A stretch of DNA of 34,992 nt from Bacteroidota bacterium (GTDB lineage Bacteria; Bacteroidota; Bacteroidia; JABDFU01). The notes beneath the pieces are model-generated. The model was not told the origin of the DNA. It searched no databases and saw only the letters and a list, made by a program, of their open reading frames with translations. Both the position numbers and the translations under genes were made by a program. The stretch lies in contig JABDFG010000022.1 of the NCBI GenBank assembly GCA_013286655.1, forward strand, positions 1-34,992, given 5' to 3'. Shown here piece after piece: positions 11,566 through 20,017 of the stretch (positions within the stretch are counted from its first letter, which is position 1; every line of letters starts with the position of its first letter).

Positions 11566-12144
11566 ATGAAAAACATAGCCATTTTTGCTTCGGGCGAAGG
11601 AAGCAACGCCCAGCAGCTGATCGACTATTTTAAAAAGAACGAAACAGGCCGGGTGGTTTTATTGGTAACAAATAATCCCGATGCACACGTGATCCAGCGT
11701 GCGAATAAAGCAGCCATTCCACAGCTTCTGCTGGACAAGAAAAAATTCATCGAAACAGATCACTTACTGGAAAAACTGAAGGAATATAACATTTCCTTCA
11801 TTGCATTGGCAGGGTTTATCTGGTTAATCCCCGCTTACCTGACACACGCTTATCCCGACAGAATAATAAACATACATCCCGCCTTGCTGCCCAAATACGG
11901 TGGAAAGGGTATGTACGGGATGAATATACACCAGGCGGTTATCCATAACAAAGAGCCGGAAAGTGGTATCAGCATCCATTACGTCAATGAACACTATGAT
12001 GAAGGCAAAATAATTCTACAAGTCAAATGTAAGGTGAATCCTTCCGACACTCCGGAAAGTCTTGCCGCTAAAATTCACCAGTTAGAGTATGCACATTATC
12101 CGAAAGTTGTGGAAGCACTTATTTGTTCGGTTCCTTGTGCTTAA
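11566..12144 (+). CDS. purN: Phosphoribosylglycinamide formyltransferase PurN
   Basis: PurN transfers a formyl group from 10-formyltetrahydrofolate to GAR, the third step of purine synthesis in the cytoplasm. The 192 residues match the usual length. The phosphate-binding SGEGSN (9-14), catalytic N102 and H104 in INIHPALLPKYGG, and D145 in NEHYDEGKI are all present. It lies 11 bases after the histidine kinase and may share its transcript. Its last 26 bases overlap the end of the convergent phoU gene. Confidence 0.95.
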   Translation: MKNIAIFASGEGSNAQQLIDYFKKNETGRVVLLVTNNPDAHVIQRANKAAIPQLLLDKKKFIETDHLLEKLKEYNISFIALAGFIWLIPAYLTHAYPDRIINIHPALLPKYGGKGMYGMNIHQAVIHNKEPESGISIHYVNEHYDEGKIILQVKCKVNPSDTPESLAAKIHQLEYAHYPKVVEALICSVPCA

Positions 12145-12796
12145 GCACCTTTGCTTCAATGTAAAAAATAATTTCCTCCGCGATGTTCTTTGTTTGATCT
12201 CCTACACGTTCCAGTTTACGGATCATCGATAAAATGTGCAGACTTTCGCGGATATTATCCGGATGGGATTTGATATAATCCGTTATCACATAACTGGCTT
12301 CATTATTTACTTCATCTAATTTCTCATCTTTTTTGAATAAGGTGCGGGCCAGACGGGTATCTTCCTGTTCATATGCCTGGGCAGCATCCAACAGCATTGC
12401 ATTTGACATGTCGAACATTTCTACGATACGGGCAACCTTTAAAAGCTCCGGATCAAATTGTTTATCAATATCAATGACAAACCGAGCGATTCCTTCTGCA
12501 ATATCACCTATACGTTCCAGGTTAGAATTAATTTTCAAAGCCGCCAGTACAAAACGCAGGTCAATCGCCACCGGTGTAAACAAAGCAAAAATATTTTCAC
12601 AATCCCGGTCGATCTTAAGCTCATACGCATTCACCCGCCTTTCCACGGCCACCACCTGCCGGGCAAGATCCTTGTCGTGCTGAATCAGCGCCTCTTTACC
12701 TTTTTCCACTTGCTGGCGCACGAGTTTCCACATATTGAGCGTATCTGTTTTAAGAAGCTGCAATTCTTCATCCAGGTGCGAATGAGTAGTCGTCAT
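12119..12796 (-). CDS. phoU: Phosphate-transport regulator PhoU
   Basis: PhoU is a cytoplasmic protein of two three-helix bundles that links Pst transport to PhoR/PhoB signalling and restrains phosphate uptake. The 225 residues show both characteristic repeats: NLERIGDIAEGIA in the first half and KLERVGDQTKNIAEE in the second, each carrying the ExxxD-type metal-binding pattern. It is the last gene of the porin-pst operon, 18 bases after pstB. Its 3' end overlaps purN tail to tail by 26 bases. Confidence 0.95.
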   Translation of the reverse strand: MTTTHSHLDEELQLLKTDTLNMWKLVRQQVEKGKEALIQHDKDLARQVVAVERRVNAYELKIDRDCENIFALFTPVAIDLRFVLAALKINSNLERIGDIAEGIARFVIDIDKQFDPELLKVARIVEMFDMSNAMLLDAAQAYEQEDTRLARTLFKKDEKLDEVNNEASYVITDYIKSHPDNIRESLHILSMIRKLERVGDQTKNIAEEIIFYIEAKVLKHKEPNK

Positions 12797-12814: not shown

Positions 12815-13588
12815 TTATCCAAATCTGCCGGTTATGTAATTCTGTGTTCGGGTGTGTTTAGGATTCGTAAACATGGTTTTCGTATCATCGCATTCAATCA
12901 GTTCCCCCATGTAAAAAAAAGCAGTCTTATCACTTACCCTACCCGCCTGTTGCATGTTATGCGTTACAATAATAATCGTGTATTGATTTTTCAATTCATA
13001 AATCAGCTCTTCGATTTTGGCGGTAGAGATCGGATCAAGTGCGGAAGCCGGTTCATCCATCAATAAAACAGAAGGCTCAATCGCCAGAGCCCGGGCGATA
13101 CATAAACGCTGCTGCTGTCCACCCGATAATTCAAACGCGGATTTTTTCAATTTGTCCTTTACTTCCTCCCAGAGTGCAGACTGTTTCAGGGAGCGCTCCA
13201 CCCGCTCCTCTATAAATTTAGCCTCCTTTACCCCATTCACCCGTAAACCGTACGCTACATTTTCAAAAATGGACTTTGGAAAAGGATTCGGTTTCTGGAA
13301 AACCATTCCGATATTTTTTCTAAGCTCATCCACATTCATAGAACGGTCGTTGATATCCTTTCCATCCACCATGACATACCCCGTAATCCGGGTGCTGGGA
13401 ATCAGATCATTCATCCGGTTAAAACACCTTAAAAAAGTGGATTTGCCACAACCCGAAGGACCAATCAAAGCCACCACCGTATTCTCCTCCATGGACAAGG
13501 TAATTCCCTTTAACGCATGAAAGTCGCCATAGTAAAGGTTAACATCCTTCGCCATGACTTTCGGTTTCTTCACATAATCTTTTACCAT
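12815..13588 (-). CDS. pstB: Phosphate ABC transporter ATP-binding protein PstB
   Basis: PstB is the ATPase of the high-affinity PstSCAB importer on the inner face of the cytoplasmic membrane. In its 257 residues I see Walker [10 protein letters not shown] (43-51), the Q-loop at Q98 (FQKPNPFP, the PstB-specific wording), the signature LSGGQQQR (154-161), Walker B LLMDEP (175-180), the D-loop SALD and the switch H210. The length is normal. It begins 10 bases after pstA and ends 18 bases before phoU. Confidence 0.97.
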
Positions 13589-13598
13589 GTTAAAATGA

Positions 13599-14477
13599 TT
13601 AATTCATTTTCACTTTCTTCCCAAAATACCTGCGCAATACATTTGCCAGCAAATTTAAGATCAGCACAATAAGCACAAGTACCAAAGCCGTGCCATAAGC
13701 CATTTTACGGGACTCAACAATATTTGTTCCACTGGTTGAGATAACATACAGATGATAAGGCAGGGCCATCACCTGGTCAAAAATACTGTGGGGAAGTTTG
13801 GGTAAAAAATAAGCAGCCACCGTAAATAAAATAGGTGCTGTTTCGCCCGATATTCTTCCGATGGATAAAATAAGACCGGTAATAATATTTGGCAAAGACA
13901 TGGGTAATACCACCTTTCGGATGGTCTGTAATTTCGTCGCACCCAGCGCATAACTTCCTACCCGAAAGGAATTATCAATTGCTTTCAGTGATTCTTCCGT
14001 AGTCCGGATAACAACCGGTAGTACCAGCAAACCCAGAGTGAGAGAACCGGCCAGTATGGAATCTCCAAAATGAAGGTCATTAACAAATAAGGACATACCA
14101 AACAGGCCGAAAACAATGGAAGGTATCCCCGCCAGGTTATTGGTCATTGCTTTCATAAAGCGTTTTAATATCCCATCCTTGGTATATTCATGCACATAAA
14201 TCCCCGACATAATACCAATAGGAAAGGCAAAAATCATACTTCCAAGCATTAAACAAAACGTTCCGATAATCGCGGGATATATTCCACCTTTAGTCATTCC
14301 ATCCTCCGGCATTTTAGTCAGAAAATCCCAGCTAATCGCCGGAAGCCCGCGAATAACAATAAATCCAAGTATCACAAAAAGAACCAGTACGATGCTGGCA
14401 CTCATCAATGTGAACAAAGTAAAAACAAAATTTTGCGAAGCCTGCTTTCTTCTATGTATTTTACCGGAATCCATCAT
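13599..14477 (-). CDS. pstA: Phosphate ABC transporter permease PstA
   Basis: This 292-residue inner-membrane permease has about six hydrophobic segments. It carries the PstA landmarks [15 protein letters not shown] and the EAA loop [16 protein letters not shown] that contacts PstB. It pairs with PstC to form the phosphate channel. The ATG overlaps the TGA of pstC as ATGA, so the two permeases are translationally coupled. A second ATG follows immediately and could also serve as the start. Confidence 0.95.
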
Positions 14478-15679
14478 TTACTATATTTTCTACGTGCTGA
14501 AATTAAGTCAACCGTTAAATTAATCACCAGGGTCATCACAAATAAAACACAACCCAATGCAAACAAAGCCTTATAATGTAAGCCCCCATGCGCGGATTCC
14601 CCAAGTTCAGCCGCTATGGTTGCCGGGATGGTCCGCATCGGTACCAGGATACTGTGTGGAATAATTGCCGCATTACCGGTCACCATTAGAACGGCCATCG
14701 TTTCACCCATAGCCCGGCCGATGCCCAAAATCGTCGCCGCGGAGATCCCGGAAATAGAGTAAGGAACAATTACTTTATAGATCGTCTGCCAGTGCGTTGC
14801 TCCTAAAGCCAGGCTGGCCTCCTTCATGGCACGCGGTGTATTCCGGATAGCATCTTCAGAAATAGTAATGATGGTTGGCAGCGCCATGATGGCCAATACA
14901 AGGCTACCCGACAAACCCGTTTCCCCTACCGGCAGATTAAATGTTTTCTGTACCAGGGGAACAATCACGATCAAACCAAAAAAACCATACACCACAGAGG
15001 GTATACCCGCCAGCAACTCAATCACCGGTTTTAAGATTTTACCTACACGGGCATCCGCAATTTCCGCAATATATACGGCCGTTGCCAAACCAAAAGGCAA
15101 AGCGATGAGAATCGCCACCAGACTTACCCATAAAGTCCCCAGTATTAAAGGAAGAATTCCCAACTGAGCGGCAGGTTGAGCCGTAGGAAACCATTCCTTG
15201 TCTTTTATAAATCCTGTCAAGGTCACTTTTTTCATCGCTAAAATCCTTCCCTGGAAATTTTTACTGATGTATTCCGTCGGGAAAAATGCGATGATACCGG
15301 TTTTCTTACCCATCAGTTCACTGATCCGTTGAGGAACAAATTGCAGGCTGTCTCCCAGTTCAGCATCCGAGTAATAGTTGCTGATATCATTCACACTAAA
15401 AACAATGATCGAATCTTTATTCCCGCCAACCTCTTTCCAATTCGTTATTTTCCGGTCAAAAATATTTTTTATTTGCTGTGCCGTCAATTCCTGTACTGGA
15501 TTACTTTTGTTCAACGCGATGACAGAGCCCTTTTCAACAGGCGTTTCGTTAAAAAGACCCCAGCCTTCCTTAAACAAAAATAAGACGATAAGTATAACGG
15601 CAAAACTGGTGATGGTCCCGCTTAAAAACAAGAGACCCTCTACGAATTTTTCAATGAATCTTTGAAAGGAGGTCTTCAA
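14474..15679 (-). CDS. pstC: Phosphate ABC transporter permease PstC with a PstS-like periplasmic insert
   Basis: The C-terminal part (about 170-401) is a standard PstC: ELLAGIPSVVYGFFG (221-235), the EAA loop EASLALGATHWQTIYKVIVP (287-306) and about five membrane segments. A first membrane segment lies at about 17-37. Between it and the next (about 173) are some 130 residues, making the protein roughly 100 residues longer than the classical PstC. Residues 53-137 resemble the neighbouring PstS: LTAQQIKNIFDRKITNWKEV here against LTREQLEGIFTGAIVNWKEV there, then IIVFS against IIVYS, then TGIIAFFPTEYI against GAIGYVGLAYL. The PstS phosphate-binding RESSSGT is replaced by VNDISNY. The insert therefore looks like a degenerate binding-protein lobe facing the periplasm. 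Confidence 0.92.
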   Translation of the reverse strand: MKTSFQRFIEKFVEGLLFLSGTITSFAVILIVLFLFKEGWGLFNETPVEKGSVIALNKSNPVQELTAQQIKNIFDRKITNWKEVGGNKDSIIVFSVNDISNYYSDAELGDSLQFVPQRISELMGKKTGIIAFFPTEYISKNFQGRILAMKKVTLTGFIKDKEWFPTAQPAAQLGILPLILGTLWVSLVAILIALPFGLATAVYIAEIADARVGKILKPVIELLAGIPSVVYGFFGLIVIVPLVQKTFNLPVGETGLSGSLVLAIMALPTIITISEDAIRNTPRAMKEASLALGATHWQTIYKVIVPYSISGISAATILGIGRAMGETMAVLMVTGNAAIIPHSILVPMRTIPATIAAELGESAHGGLHYKALFALGCVLFVMTLVINLTVDLISARRKYSK

Positions 15680-15722
15680 TTTCTTTTACTTTTTAAATTT
15701 TTCAGTCCATACCATAACTCAT

Positions 15723-15745
15723 AAGCCCTTCCGTAAGAAGGGCTT
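15723..15745 (-). promoter_or_regulatory. Stable hairpin in the pstS-pstC gap
   Basis: AAGCCCTTC (15723-15731) and GAAGGGCTT (15737-15745) form a perfect 9-bp stem with a 5-base loop, inside the 145-base gap between the pstS stop and the pstC start. No T-run follows it on the minus strand, so it is not a canonical terminator. It could be a processing or 3'-end-stabilising structure that yields more PstS than permease, as is common for pst operons. Confidence 0.5.
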
Positions 15746-15824
15746 TGTCCAGAATGCTGCGGACGATGAGTACTAAACTAAACAACAACTACATTAATTT
15801 AAATTTAGTGTCTTGAAAAATTCA

Positions 15825-16640
15825 TTATTTAACAGAAATATACCCAACTTCTTCTACTGTTTTTTGACCTTCTGCAGAGAGCACATAGTCAATATAGGGC
15901 TTAACTTTTGCCTCCAGGTCCCCTGCATAGAAATAATACAAAGGTCGCGCGATCGGATACGTTTTATCTTTAGCAGCTTTGATACTTGCTTTAACAAAGG
16001 TCTTTCCATCATACGATACCGCCAGATCCTTCACTTCCTTATTCAGGTAGGCCAGGCCCACATAACCGATAGCACCCTTAGTCTGACCCACCGATTGAAC
16101 AATAGCTCCTGTGGCAGGCAAGCTCAATACCGTAGCGGCATAGTTCTTTTTACCCATTACATGTTCCTTCATGAAATCATACGTACCGGAACTGGATTCA
16201 CGGGAGTACACGATAATTTTATCATCGTCCCCTCCAACTTCTTTCCAGTTTACAATCGCACCGGTAAAAATACCCTCCAGCTGCTCGCGGGTTAACTGGC
16301 TGACTTTGTTTTTTGGATTAACAATGATAGAAAGTGCGTCAATACCGACAATCACTTGTTTTATTTTTTTATCCTTCAATTTCATTTTTTCATCCACTTT
16401 CAGATCCCTGGAAGACATAGCTATATCCGTGCTTCCATCCTCCAAAGCAGCAATTCCAATTCCCGAACCACCGCCAACGACTGTGATAGAAGCATCTGTA
16501 TTTTTCTTCATGTAGTTTTCTGCTTCCTTTTGAGACAAAGGCAATACGGTATCACTCCCCTTTACTTTTATTTCAACTTTCCCAACAGTAAAGGCCATCA
16601 TAAGGCCTGTTGCTGCTAATAAACAAATTGCTTTTTTCAT
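15825..16640 (-). CDS. pstS: Periplasmic phosphate-binding protein PstS
   Basis: PstS captures phosphate in the periplasm and delivers it to PstC/PstA. The 271 residues start with a signal peptide (MKKAICLLAATGLMMAFTVG). Phosphate-contact segments are visible: KGSDTVLPL (27-35), GGGSGIGIAAL followed by DIAMSSRDL, and SRESSSGTYDFM (146-157). It follows the porin by about 100 bases, which include a very stable hairpin. The permease gene pstC is next. Confidence 0.95.
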   Translation of the reverse strand: MKKAICLLAATGLMMAFTVGKVEIKVKGSDTVLPLSQKEAENYMKKNTDASITVVGGGSGIGIAALEDGSTDIAMSSRDLKVDEKMKLKDKKIKQVIVGIDALSIIVNPKNKVSQLTREQLEGIFTGAIVNWKEVGGDDDKIIVYSRESSSGTYDFMKEHVMGKKNYAATVLSLPATGAIVQSVGQTKGAIGYVGLAYLNKEVKDLAVSYDGKTFVKASIKAAKDKTYPIARPLYYFYAGDLEAKVKPYIDYVLSAEGQKTVEEVGYISVK

Positions 16641-16656
16641 TTTTTTAGTTTTAGTA

Positions 16657-16683
16657 AATACCTCCCGAAGATCGGGAGGTATT
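16657..16683 (-). promoter_or_regulatory. 12-bp perfect hairpin upstream of pstS
   Basis: AATACCTCCCGA (16657-16668) is the exact reverse complement of 16672-16683, with a 3-base loop. It lies 17 bases upstream of the pstS start on the transcribed minus strand. Six G-C pairs in the middle make it very stable. The bases after it on the minus strand are A-rich, not T-rich, so it is not a standard terminator. A 3'-end stabiliser for the porin message, a processing site or a translational element for pstS are possible. Confidence 0.5.
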
Positions 16684-16720
16684 AGAGGGACTGTATTAAT
16701 TCTATTTAAATAAACTATTA

Positions 16721-16747
16721 TTAAACCGTTTAAAATGACCGGTTTAA
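16721..16747 (-). terminator. Weak hairpin over the porin stop codon
   Basis: TTAAACCG (16721-16728) pairs with CGGTTTAA (16740-16747) across an 11-base loop. The right arm includes the porin stop codon (complement of 16744-16746). An AT-rich stretch follows in the direction of transcription. It may cause partial termination between the porin and pstS. Confidence 0.3.
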
Positions 16748-18141
16748 TTCATCATTCCGTTGTTCGATACCTTTTTATTTTGGTTGAACAGGAAGTAGAA
16801 GGTAACACGATAAACCATGTCATTATCATTTTTCACTCTGGTACCATACGCAGATCCCTCACCACCTGAAAGCGTGGTCGTTTGCATAGAGCTATATGCA
16901 TTGTACCAAATATTTGGCATGATATGGAATCGTGCATTGGGAGTCCAGTCAAGACCCGCAGTTAAAAAACTTTGTGTATAGAACGTACCATAAGTAAGGT
17001 TACTTCCGGTAATAGCACTGTACGCTTTGGAATAAACATTGTTAATGTTCCATTTTGTATCCGGATTATACATGTCATACCTTGCAAATATGCTCAGCTT
17101 GTTTTTTAATATTTGTCCGGATGCGAATACTGACCATCCCATTTGAACACCAGTTGCAGTATCGTTAACAGCTCCAGCAACAGGTTTTCCGTTACTATAT
17201 GCCTGATAAATGTCTGAGTTTTTATTCATCTGTTCAAATACTTCAAAACCAACCCTGAACCATTCGCTTTTATAAGATACATAAGCCTTCATGGTACTAT
17301 TACCGGTAGCAGTTTTGGTAGAGGAATTATTTGTAGTCATCAGATCCCCATATAAACCTACCGTTAGGTTACGCTGCAAAAAAGTTCCATAAAGGTTAAG
17401 TCTGACTTTTTTGAAGTTGCTTGCGCTTGGTACAGCAGAGTTATTATTCCCAACTTGTAAAAAATAACCGATCATATTTGGTCTGGAACTATCAGGAGCG
17501 CCACCTGCAACCCATAATTTACCTTGTAAGGATGCACCCATATCTGTTGATCCATCAATGTTATGCAGATCCATGATCGTTCTTTCTACTGAACGATATG
17601 ACCACAAAGGCTCAGTTCCATAAGGAGTAGCGAAAGAACAGGTTTGATATTGCCCAATTACCAGATCCTGATTTTTAATGAAATTAGACCATTTTACATT
17701 CGCGTATTTTACATACATGGTGTTTTTGCCACCTGCATCTTCGTTTTGCTCATTTGCCAAAACAACCTGAGCTGTAAAATTAGGAGCAAACTGATAATCA
17801 TAACCTAAATAAACCCGTCGGATTGCAAAAGCATTCTCCTGGTAATTTGCTGGAACCTGCGTTGCTCCGGTCCCCGCTTTTGGCGTAGAAACCGGTGTAG
17901 TATTTAATGCCCCAATCTTACCTGCAGTTGAATTCGCTCCTCCATTAAACCCGGCGTACTGCACATTTCCCCCTCCTCTTTGCGCGGTATCATTATGTGA
18001 TTTAAACGCGTAATCCCCGAAAGCATATCCCCAAAGGTTTCCGGATGGCACAAAACTTTCCTGCGCCTTCGCGCCTTCGATCGCCAATACACCACCTATT
18101 GCGAGGCACATTGACATAATTTTTGTAGTCTTCAATTTCAT
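16744..18141 (-). CDS. Phosphate-type outer-membrane porin (OprO/OprP-like)
   Basis: This 465-residue protein has a signal peptide (MKLKTTKIMSMCLAIGGVLA, cleavage probably after AKA before QESF). The rest is a series of alternating aromatic/polar strands typical of an outer-membrane barrel, ending in RVTFYFLFNQ. The stretch FAIRRVYLGYDYQFAPNFTA resembles the Porin_O_P (OprP) family. Its position as first gene before pstSCAB-phoU, behind a Pho-box-like array, strongly suggests that it passes phosphate across the outer membrane. The OprP arginine ladder cannot be confirmed by eye, so selectivity is inferred from context. Confidence 0.8.
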   Translation of the reverse strand: MKLKTTKIMSMCLAIGGVLAIEGAKAQESFVPSGNLWGYAFGDYAFKSHNDTAQRGGGNVQYAGFNGGANSTAGKIGALNTTPVSTPKAGTGATQVPANYQENAFAIRRVYLGYDYQFAPNFTAQVVLANEQNEDAGGKNTMYVKYANVKWSNFIKNQDLVIGQYQTCSFATPYGTEPLWSYRSVERTIMDLHNIDGSTDMGASLQGKLWVAGGAPDSSRPNMIGYFLQVGNNNSAVPSASNFKKVRLNLYGTFLQRNLTVGLYGDLMTTNNSSTKTATGNSTMKAYVSYKSEWFRVGFEVFEQMNKNSDIYQAYSNGKPVAGAVNDTATGVQMGWSVFASGQILKNKLSIFARYDMYNPDTKWNINNVYSKAYSAITGSNLTYGTFYTQSFLTAGLDWTPNARFHIMPNIWYNAYSSMQTTTLSGGEGSAYGTRVKNDNDMVYRVTFYFLFNQNKKVSNNGMMN

Positions 18142-18171
18142 ATTTAGTTAGTTGTTTGGTTTATTTGGGTG

Positions 18172-18179
18172 CAAAACAA
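18172..18179 (-). promoter_or_regulatory. Putative -7 element of the porin-pst operon
   Basis: On the minus strand this reads TTGTTTTG, one mismatch from TAnnTTTG. It lies 9 bases downstream of the last Pho-box-like heptamer and about 30 bases before the porin ATG, leaving a leader of roughly 25 bases. No -33 element is seen, which fits an activator-dependent promoter. Confidence 0.4.
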
Positions 18180-18188
18180 CTCAGGGAA

Positions 18189-18228
18189 GGTTAAGAAAGC
18201 ATAACCCCAATGTTAAGCTATTGTTAAA
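18189..18228 (-). promoter_or_regulatory. Pho-box-like array of four heptamers at 11-bp period
   Basis: On the minus strand, reading toward the porin, four heptamers occur at exactly 11-bp steps: TTTAACA (18228-18222), CTTAACA (18217-18211), GGTTATG (18206-18200) and CTTAACC (18195-18189). The spacers are all 4 bases. Three carry TTAAC, the core of the TTAACA PhoP box known from Bacillus; 7+4 spacing is the rule for PhoB/PhoP-type boxes generally. The array ends 9 bases before a -7-like element. Binding by a PhoB-type regulator is inferred, as no phoB/phoR lies in this window. Confidence 0.65.
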
Positions 18229-18337: not shown

Positions 18338-18345
18338 TACCTTTG
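18338..18345 (+). promoter_or_regulatory. Putative -7 element of the DUF47-pit operon
   Basis: TACCTTTG is a full match to TAnnTTTG and sits 27 bases before the ATG at 18373. Several TTAAC motifs lie nearby (18313, 18320, 18346, 18357), including the palindrome GGTTAACC at 18318-18325. Only the last two are 11 bases apart, and they lie downstream of the -7 element, so a classical activating Pho box is not evident on this side. Confidence 0.5.
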
Positions 18346-18372
18346 TTAACCTTAAATTAACATACGGCCTTT

Positions 18373-19020
18373 ATGAACTTCAGTAACATTTTACAACTTT
18401 TCATCCCAAGGGACCGGATCTTTTTCCCACTTTTTGCCAAAGCAACCCAGAACCTGGTTGTTATTTCAAACACCCTGGTTCAAATGGTGAATTCCAACGA
18501 TCATAATCAAAGACGTGCTTTGATCCGGGAAATTGAACGGCTGGAACATGTCGGAGACAATGTCACCCATGAAATATTCAATGAATTAAGTGCCAATTTC
18601 ATTACCCCATTTGACCGGGAAGATATCCAGCGGCTTGCCTCCTCTATTGACGACATCGCCGATTTTATAGAAGGTTCCGCCAAACGTGTTGAGCTGTATA
18701 AAATTGAAAGGATATCCCCGGCCATCATCAAACTTGCGGAATTGATCGAAACTTCAGCACAGGAATTACACAGTGGGGTCTCTGAACTAGGAAATAAAAA
18801 GAATGTTCATAAAATCAAGGAGGCCTGTGTGCGCATTAACAGCATCGAAAACCATGCAGACGATGTATTCAACATGGCCATTGCCAATTTATTCGAACAG
18901 GAAAAAGATGCCATCGCCATTATCAAGGTAAAGGAAATTCTTGCCGCGCTCGAAACGGCTACCGATAAATGCGAGGACGCAGCCAATGTACTGCAAACGA
19001 TACTCGTTAAAAACGCCTAA
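18373..19020 (+). CDS. DUF47 PhoU-like protein, Pit accessory protein
   Basis: This 215-residue, largely helical protein belongs to the DUF47/PhoU-like group often encoded directly before Pit transporters. It contains PhoU-type metal-binding patterns: EHVGD (58-62), SIDDIADFIE (D93/D97) and, in the second half, ENHADD and DKCEDA. It probably regulates or assists the Pit transporter whose start lies 7 bases downstream. It is a second PhoU-related protein in this locus, distinct from PhoU at 12119-12796. Confidence 0.9.
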   Translation: MNFSNILQLFIPRDRIFFPLFAKATQNLVVISNTLVQMVNSNDHNQRRALIREIERLEHVGDNVTHEIFNELSANFITPFDREDIQRLASSIDDIADFIEGSAKRVELYKIERISPAIIKLAELIETSAQELHSGVSELGNKKNVHKIKEACVRINSIENHADDVFNMAIANLFEQEKDAIAIIKVKEILAALETATDKCEDAANVLQTILVKNA

Positions 19021-19027
19021 ATAGCCT

Positions 19028-20017
19028 ATGACCTTGCTCTTTATTATCGTCATCCTCCTGGCCCTTGTTTTTGATTTTATCAATGGCTTTCACGATGCTG
19101 CCAATTCAATTGCTACCGTAGTGTCCACAAAAGTTTTATCTCCCCTCACGGCCGTAATATGGGCCGCCGCCTTTAACTTCATCGCTTATTGGATCTTCGA
19201 GCTGAAAGTGGCCGACACGGTTTCAAAAACGGTAAAGGGAGAATATGTAACCCTGGTAGTTGTTTGCTCCGGACTAATTGCTTCTATTATCTGGAACCTG
19301 ATTACCTGGTGGAAAGGAATTCCTTCCAGCTCTTCCCACACCCTTATCGGCGGTTTTGCCGGAGCGGGAATTGCCAATGCGGGGGGCTTTAGCGCAATCC
19401 ATTGGGGAAAAGTAATGCCGGTGATCTATTTTATCGTGCTAGCACCCGTTTTGGGAATGCTTATTTCCATTATTATCAATATTATTACCATCAATATTTG
19501 CAAAAAAATGAGGCCCTCCCGGGTAGATGCGGTTTTCCGTCGACTGCAGCTGGTATCCTCGGCTGCATATAGTTTGGGACACGGGGGTAATGATGCACAG
19601 AAAGTCATCGGAATTATTGCAGCAGCCCTGGTATCCCAGGGAATGATAACGGACATCAGCCATATACCCGGATGGGTACCCATTGCTTGTTACAGTGCTA
19701 TATCACTGGGAACCATGTTCGGGGGATGGAGAATTGTAAAAACAATGGGGCAAAAGATAACCAAGCTCACTCCTTTTGAAGGATTCAGTGCGGAAACCGC
19801 AGGTGCCATTACACTTTTCGTTACACAATATTTTAAAATACCCGTAAGTACTACTCATACCATCACCGGATCAATTGTTGGAGTCGGCGTGGCCAAGCGC
19901 ACCTCCGCGGTGCGTTGGGGTGTTACGATCAATTTGATCTGGGCCTGGGTGCTGACTATTCCGGTTGCAGGAATTCTGGCAGCGCTTATTTTTTACCTGA
20001 TGAGGGCACTGATGTAG
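19028..20017 (+). CDS. Low-affinity inorganic phosphate transporter, Pit family
   Basis: This is a 329-residue inner-membrane transporter of the PiT (PHO-4) family, which takes up metal-phosphate or phosphate with a cation. Both inverted-repeat signatures are visible: GFHDAANSIATVVST (20-34) and GHGGNDAQKVIGI (184-196). Further landmarks are PSSSSHTLIGG (99-109) and VSTTHTITGSIVGVG (273-287). About nine hydrophobic segments are present. It is co-transcribed with the DUF47 protein (7-base gap) and lies divergent to the Pst operon. Confidence 0.95.
   Translation: MTLLFIIVILLALVFDFINGFHDAANSIATVVSTKVLSPLTAVIWAAAFNFIAYWIFELKVADTVSKTVKGEYVTLVVVCSGLIASIIWNLITWWKGIPSSSSHTLIGGFAGAGIANAGGFSAIHWGKVMPVIYFIVLAPVLGMLISIIINIITINICKKMRPSRVDAVFRRLQLVSSAAYSLGHGGNDAQKVIGIIAAALVSQGMITDISHIPGWVPIACYSAISLGTMFGGWRIVKTMGQKITKLTPFEGFSAETAGAITLFVTQYFKIPVSTTHTITGSIVGVGVAKRTSAVRWGVTINLIWAWVLTIPVAGILAALIFYLMRALM

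Follow-up and report, generated by a model that had tools for sequence, protein, structure and literature searches.

A candidate PhoB-type Pho box of four 11-bp repeats before a porin-pst operon in Bacteroidota

The window, i.e. the whole stretch of 34,992 nucleotides of a Bacteroidota contig analysed here, carries phosphate genes in two divergent groups. On the minus strand an outer-membrane porin gene (16744-18141) is the first gene of an operon. It is followed by pstS (15825-16640, TIGR02136), pstC (14474-15679, TIGR02138), pstA (13599-14477, TIGR00974), pstB (12815-13588, TIGR00972) and phoU (12119-12796, TIGR02135). The porin, a predicted beta-barrel, had no Pfam or NCBIfam match; its structure model (pLDDT 74) matched known porin structures, OprP and OprO among them. 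Divergently, on the plus strand, run a DUF47 (PhoU_div) gene (18373-19020, PF01865) and the gene of a Pit phosphate permease (19028-20017, PF01384). The initial annotation had placed the porin, pstSCAB and phoU under one promoter. The gene spacing makes a single transcript plausible; however, two strong hairpins intervene, one in the porin-pstS gap (16641-16743) and one in the pstS-pstC gap (15680-15824). With these, the porin may be made in excess over the transporter. In a related genome (G001, L037) a hairpin corresponding to that of the porin-pstS gap is present, but its sequence differs. Residues 51-101 of PstC are recognized by a PstS profile, so that the permease looks as though it had incorporated part of the binding protein; long PstC proteins of about 400 amino acids are common in the class.

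Upstream of the porin gene four heptamers start exactly every 11 bases on the minus strand, running from 18228 to 18189. They read TTTAACA (unit 1, 18222-18228), CTTAACA (unit 2, 18211-18217), GGTTATG (unit 3, 18200-18206) and CTTAACC (unit 4, 18189-18195), with ATAG, TTGG and CTTT in between. The array consists of 11-bp direct repeats of seven conserved and four variable positions, as in a PHO box. Unit 1 was aligned with 29 other sites and unit 2 was likewise placed by the multi-site alignment. Unit 3 is weak and the poorest match, the class consensus being GGTAACA, and at unit 4 the consensus is ..GTAAT. The class consensus of the whole array, taken from porin upstream regions, is gAgTTAACATTAAaTTAATATTGgGGTAACATTG..gTAAT. 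The array does not use the E. coli-type word CTGTCAT; instead, the consensus is TTAACA/GTAACA. Nine bases past the last heptamer lies a -7-like octamer, TTGTTTTG (18179-18172), followed by a C. The element accordingly spans 18171-18179 on the minus strand, with a TTTGC core at 18175-18171, 13 nt after unit 4. The ATG of the porin, at 18141, follows about 30 bases past TTGTTTTG. The coordinates and geometry first proposed for the array, i.e. the 11-bp period on the minus strand and 9 bp to the -7-like octamer, were correct.

The housekeeping promoter of Bacteroidota consists of a -33 TTTG and a -7 TAnnTTTG (PMC7366714). The octamer in the window matches the TTTG half of the latter and has TT where TA is expected. 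No -33 TTTG was conserved in the corresponding stretch of an alignment of 30 sites; units 3 and 4 sit there. Judged by sequence position only, the array lies where a PHO box is expected, immediately before the promoter core and covering the -33/-35 place.

A doublet YTTAACA-N4-YTTAACA with up to two mismatches matched the genome to which the window belongs (the source genome) 165 times, and the backward doublet matched 164 times, i.e. there was no enrichment. Exact matches numbered three, the window site among them. Period and wording alone thus prove little. Because the window and the source genome by themselves constitute weak evidence, conservation was used as the test. The window was scored with a matrix of 32 sites from which its own order and genus and the nearest porin relatives had been left out. 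The array scored 36.0. No other site of the 35-kb window exceeded 5.7, and the reversed window reached -3.9 at most.

Several other sites in the source genome deserve mention. An exact TTAACA doublet lies on contig C8 between a sixA-like gene and ppk1 (L363:2075-2150); it is inverted relative to ppk1 and was left out of the count. In other genomes arrays face sixA (L299) or ppk (L323). Model matches before a glutamate-dehydrogenase-like gene (contig C2) and in an arsenic operon (contig C51) were weak, with E values of 0.02 and 0.25. The C51 match (L360, around 468-493) has an ArsR-like repressor on one side and an aquaporin/arsenate-reductase pair on the other; it possibly reflects a link between arsenic and phosphate, or chance. 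Contig C84 (L215:1-1724) encodes a second member of the window porin's family, ahead of another phosphate-binding-protein-like gene. No array was found upstream of it within the stretch that was fetched.

A scan of named genomes gave 49 porin relatives. Nearly all came from Bacteroidota, mostly from metagenome-assembled genomes; Taibaiella soli, Chitinophagaceae and Mucilaginibacter were represented. Of the porin homologues, 48 had their upstream regions tested, and 37 of these regions carried the array. TTTG stood at a single fixed offset in 35 of these 37 arrays, and TTTGC in 32. In a leave-one-out scan 39 porin upstream regions beat all 40 of their dinucleotide shuffles, and 30 sites aligned without a gap across 60 columns. 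The independent set comprised 58 pst regions of the same class but from other genomes; many of these regions start with a porin that is not alignable to the window porin, or with pstS itself. Scores above 8 were obtained on the sense strand in 33 of the 58 regions (a few of them from genomes that also supplied training sites), on the opposite strand in three and in reversed sequence in none. When a 44-base matrix devoid of any -7 information was used, TTTG followed exactly 11 bases on in 20 of 29 pst matches; in four of the 29 it was found at +22, one repeat unit further. The array accompanied pst in 26 of 41 regions from genomes with a PhoB orthologue vs two of 17 without one (Fisher p = 4e-4, related genomes not being independent). 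The remaining 15 of the 41 PhoB-bearing regions had no array above a score of 15, so some lineages differ. According to the initial annotation, the proposal would be refuted if orthologous operons lacked upstream TTAAC motifs with an 11-bp spacing. This refutation test was run, and the array turned out to be conserved across the class.

Next to these gene-directed scans stands a class-wide de novo search of 296 genomes, many of them incomplete, with the pattern TTAAYA-N5-TTAAYA-N5-KTAAYA-N6-TAAY-N14-TTTGC and three mismatches allowed. It matched at 120 places in 92 of the genomes. As controls, the backward pattern gave eight matches and the same words at a 10-bp period gave six. About 20 of the 120 places were pst operons seen before. 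For downstream reading 80 places were fetched and Pfam was run on 75 proteins. This yielded a TonB receptor plug in 24, Porin_O_P in nine, a response regulator domain in five (four of them with a DNA-binding domain), LTD in three, a PstS type in two, DUF47 in two, and polyphosphate kinase and acyltransferase domains in one each. Judged from their N-termini, several further downstream proteins are beta-helix-like lipoproteins. TonB receptors, which the phylum has in abundance, prove little behind arrays when taken alone. In the genomes G024, G212 and G156 a TonB receptor gene stands back to back with phoB, with one array per gene. As had been suggested, related genomes were thus searched for the array, which was found before porin and pst genes, phoB, DUF47-pit, ppk and other phosphate genes. 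This is the gene set expected behind a PHO box, except for PhoX/DUF839. An array before phoX, likewise anticipated, did not materialize: none was found at the PhoX/DUF839 upstream regions. As many of these family matches are distant, the missing arrays limit the regulon and do not refute it. A phosphate island on contig C156 (L357) of G003, a genome of the same genus, contains DUF47, two SulP-like transporters and three arrays, located before a TonB receptor, a secreted protein and porin-pst.

Which regulator may read the array? The incomplete assembly of the source genome encodes five OmpR-type regulators. Its canonical phoB starts at C85:6303 as MDSGIYKILLVDDEPDILEFLGYNIKREG, is truncated by the contig end and is preceded by an array and TTTAC. 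phoR was not seen on C85 beside the truncated gene; phoB and phoR are complete in G003. Arrays also precede phoB in G024, G212 and G156, and phoB adjoins phoR in G003, G024 and G212. G003, the more complete genome, carries PhoB, PhoR and a PhoB paralogue together, and its PhoB is 80% identical to the PhoBs behind arrays in G024 and G212. The orphan paralogue, P0003, lies beside phoB in the source genome (C85, L216:1529-2212) and in G003 (L362:2790-3500; 67% identical). In the source genome a weak array and TTTCG are located upstream of P0003. P0003 was considered as PhoB itself and rejected; the true phoB starts just after it, at the contig end. Naming by NCBIfam failed as well: the best match of P0003, the Bacteroides PhoB model, was below cut-off, and other regulators of the source genome did equally well. 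Therefore, PhoB was identified by synteny and by identity to G003.

The array is conserved, it stands in fixed register to TTTGC, the 11-bp period is needed, and phosphate genes and phoB lie downstream. On these grounds we consider it highly probable that the array is a Pho box of the PhoB type which activates porin-pstSCAB-phoU. From the sequence we infer the identity of the binding protein, the dependence on its phosphorylation, the activation step, the start site and the induction by low phosphate. Upon phosphate starvation, phosphorylated PhoB, an OmpR-family protein with its gene on C85, would bind the four 11-bp repeats head to tail, in the E. coli manner; two dimers probably sit side by side on a single face of the helix. 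By geometry, units 3 and 4 would be about where a -33 element is otherwise expected. From there PhoB could help the Bacteroidota housekeeping sigma factor at a promoter whose -7 has a TTTGC core with poor TA, and which lacks a conserved -33 TTTG. The transcript would begin some 25 bp ahead of the porin gene and continue through pstSCAB-phoU. Several points speak against this reading: the missing arrays at PhoX/DUF839 genes and at 15 of the 41 PhoB-bearing pst regions, the lack of enrichment of the doublet in the source genome, and the weak third unit of the window site. Further, deletion of the Riemerella system raised pstS expression about 8-fold (PMC5399024), contrary to simple activation.

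The divergent DUF47-pit promoter (18338-18362, plus strand) offers an extension that is compatible with the Pho box. It has a perfect TACCTTTG at 18338-18345, directly followed by a doublet GTTAACC/ATTAACA with an 11-bp period (18345-18362), which covers the expected start site of DUF47-pit. With a score of 5.7 the doublet ranks second among the matrix sites of the window, and it is possibly a second PhoB site, of uncertain role. Conceivably, PhoB acts as a two-way switch: via the array it would activate porin-pst, and via the doublet it would repress the low-affinity Pit in starvation. The position of the doublet right behind TACCTTTG and its matrix rank are consistent with this, and the arrangement is shared by G001. 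We nevertheless regard the switch as unlikely. Doublets or arrays also occur ahead of the pit -7 in G001, G002, G003, G004 and G005, i.e. in a place suited to an activator; within the order such doublets stand in addition to, or in place of, one over the start site. Elsewhere arrays precede DUF47 as they precede activated genes (L266, L267, L159). Moreover, the Bacteroides fragilis permease BF3715 depends positively on PhoB (PMC3547664).

Alternatively, the repeats are real and are read mainly by another OmpR-family regulator, such as RprY, P0003 or an orphan regulator on contig C48, with the phosphate genes being only a part of a wider regulon, e.g. for redox or envelope functions. Several OmpR-family proteins share direct repeats of the TTAAC type, five such regulators are present even in the incomplete source assembly, and the Riemerella motif was noted as ArcA-like and covers many non-phosphate genes (PMC9603813). 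We consider this quite improbable, however. The full-length DNA-binding regulators behind arrays are, in four of four cases, nearest to the PhoB/P0003 branch among the regulators of the source genome. Further, phoB stands beside phoR in the three genomes named above and the downstream genes centre on phosphate. A third possibility, chance repetition in A+T-rich promoter DNA or a phased UP-like element to which no specific regulator binds, is scarcely credible and is already largely refuted. Short A+T-rich words are indeed frequent in these genomes, and the doublet was not enriched at two mismatches, yet the signal vanished with dinucleotide shuffles, reversed sequence, the backward pattern and the 10-bp period, and the sites are followed by a non-random selection of genes.

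Going beyond the single locus, the PhoB-type Pho box might represent one undescribed Pho code used by most of the class Bacteroidia, to which we incline with some reserve. In it, a four-unit, 11-bp PhoB ladder would be locked to TTTGC, replace the -33 element, and control pst, phoB, phosphate porins, TonB receptors, beta-helix and LTD lipoproteins as well as polyphosphate and lipid remodelling. A Pho box that can be read would allow the phosphate-starvation regulon of Bacteroidota, uncultured members included, to be predicted from sequence. It also gives a direct test of which TonB receptors and lipoproteins serve phosphorus scavenging.

In Bacillus subtilis PhoP recognizes direct repeats of TT(A/T/C)ACA; the wording is similar, the phylum and the sigma factor are different. 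The initial annotation had compared the TTAACA wording with that of Bacillus. The nearest precedent, however, is found within the phylum, in the PhoP of Riemerella anatipestifer. There, DAP-seq yielded a single motif, TTTAACA, at 583 peaks (PMC9603813). The Riemerella system is alike in phylum, in word and in having a PhoB-type regulator which binds upstream of its own operon; its motif was published without an array, a period, a -7 register or a phosphate gene set. In B. fragilis expression of pst requires PhoB, which binds the promoter of the operon; a PhoB response is also seen for porin O, polyphosphate kinase and a permease (PMC3547664). A binding site was not defined in that study, which used a 512-bp fragment. 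In Flavobacterium johnsoniae a low-phosphate cluster has a TonB receptor as neighbour of phoB (PMC8115612). The induced set there matches ours: a TonB receptor beside phoB, polygalacturonase- or pectate-lyase-like lipoproteins and LTD nucleases. The text of that paper names no regulatory DNA element, and neither 'pho box' nor 'motif' occurs in it (PMC8115612). Predicted Pho boxes are marked at plcP clusters of marine bacteria, flavobacteria included, and no word is given in the part of that paper available to us (PMC4796936). A Pho-box array for Bacteroidota was not found described in the literature searched, in which subscription papers were little represented. The word TTTAACA, then, is not wholly new; the four-unit array in -7 register and its class-wide use were found undescribed in that literature, which is no proof of novelty.

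The E. coli PHO box consists of two 11-bp units with the word CTGTCAT (PMC4415409), and PhoB sites overlap the -35 (PMC3348028). The Bacteroidota array shares with it the repeats of seven conserved and four variable positions, the location near the promoter core and the place before pst and phoB. It differs in its word, TTAACA/GTAACA, in having four units instead of the basic two and in a TTTGC core in place of a sigma-70 -10. This suggests that a PhoB ladder works on a type of promoter that lacks the -35/-10 pair of E. coli.
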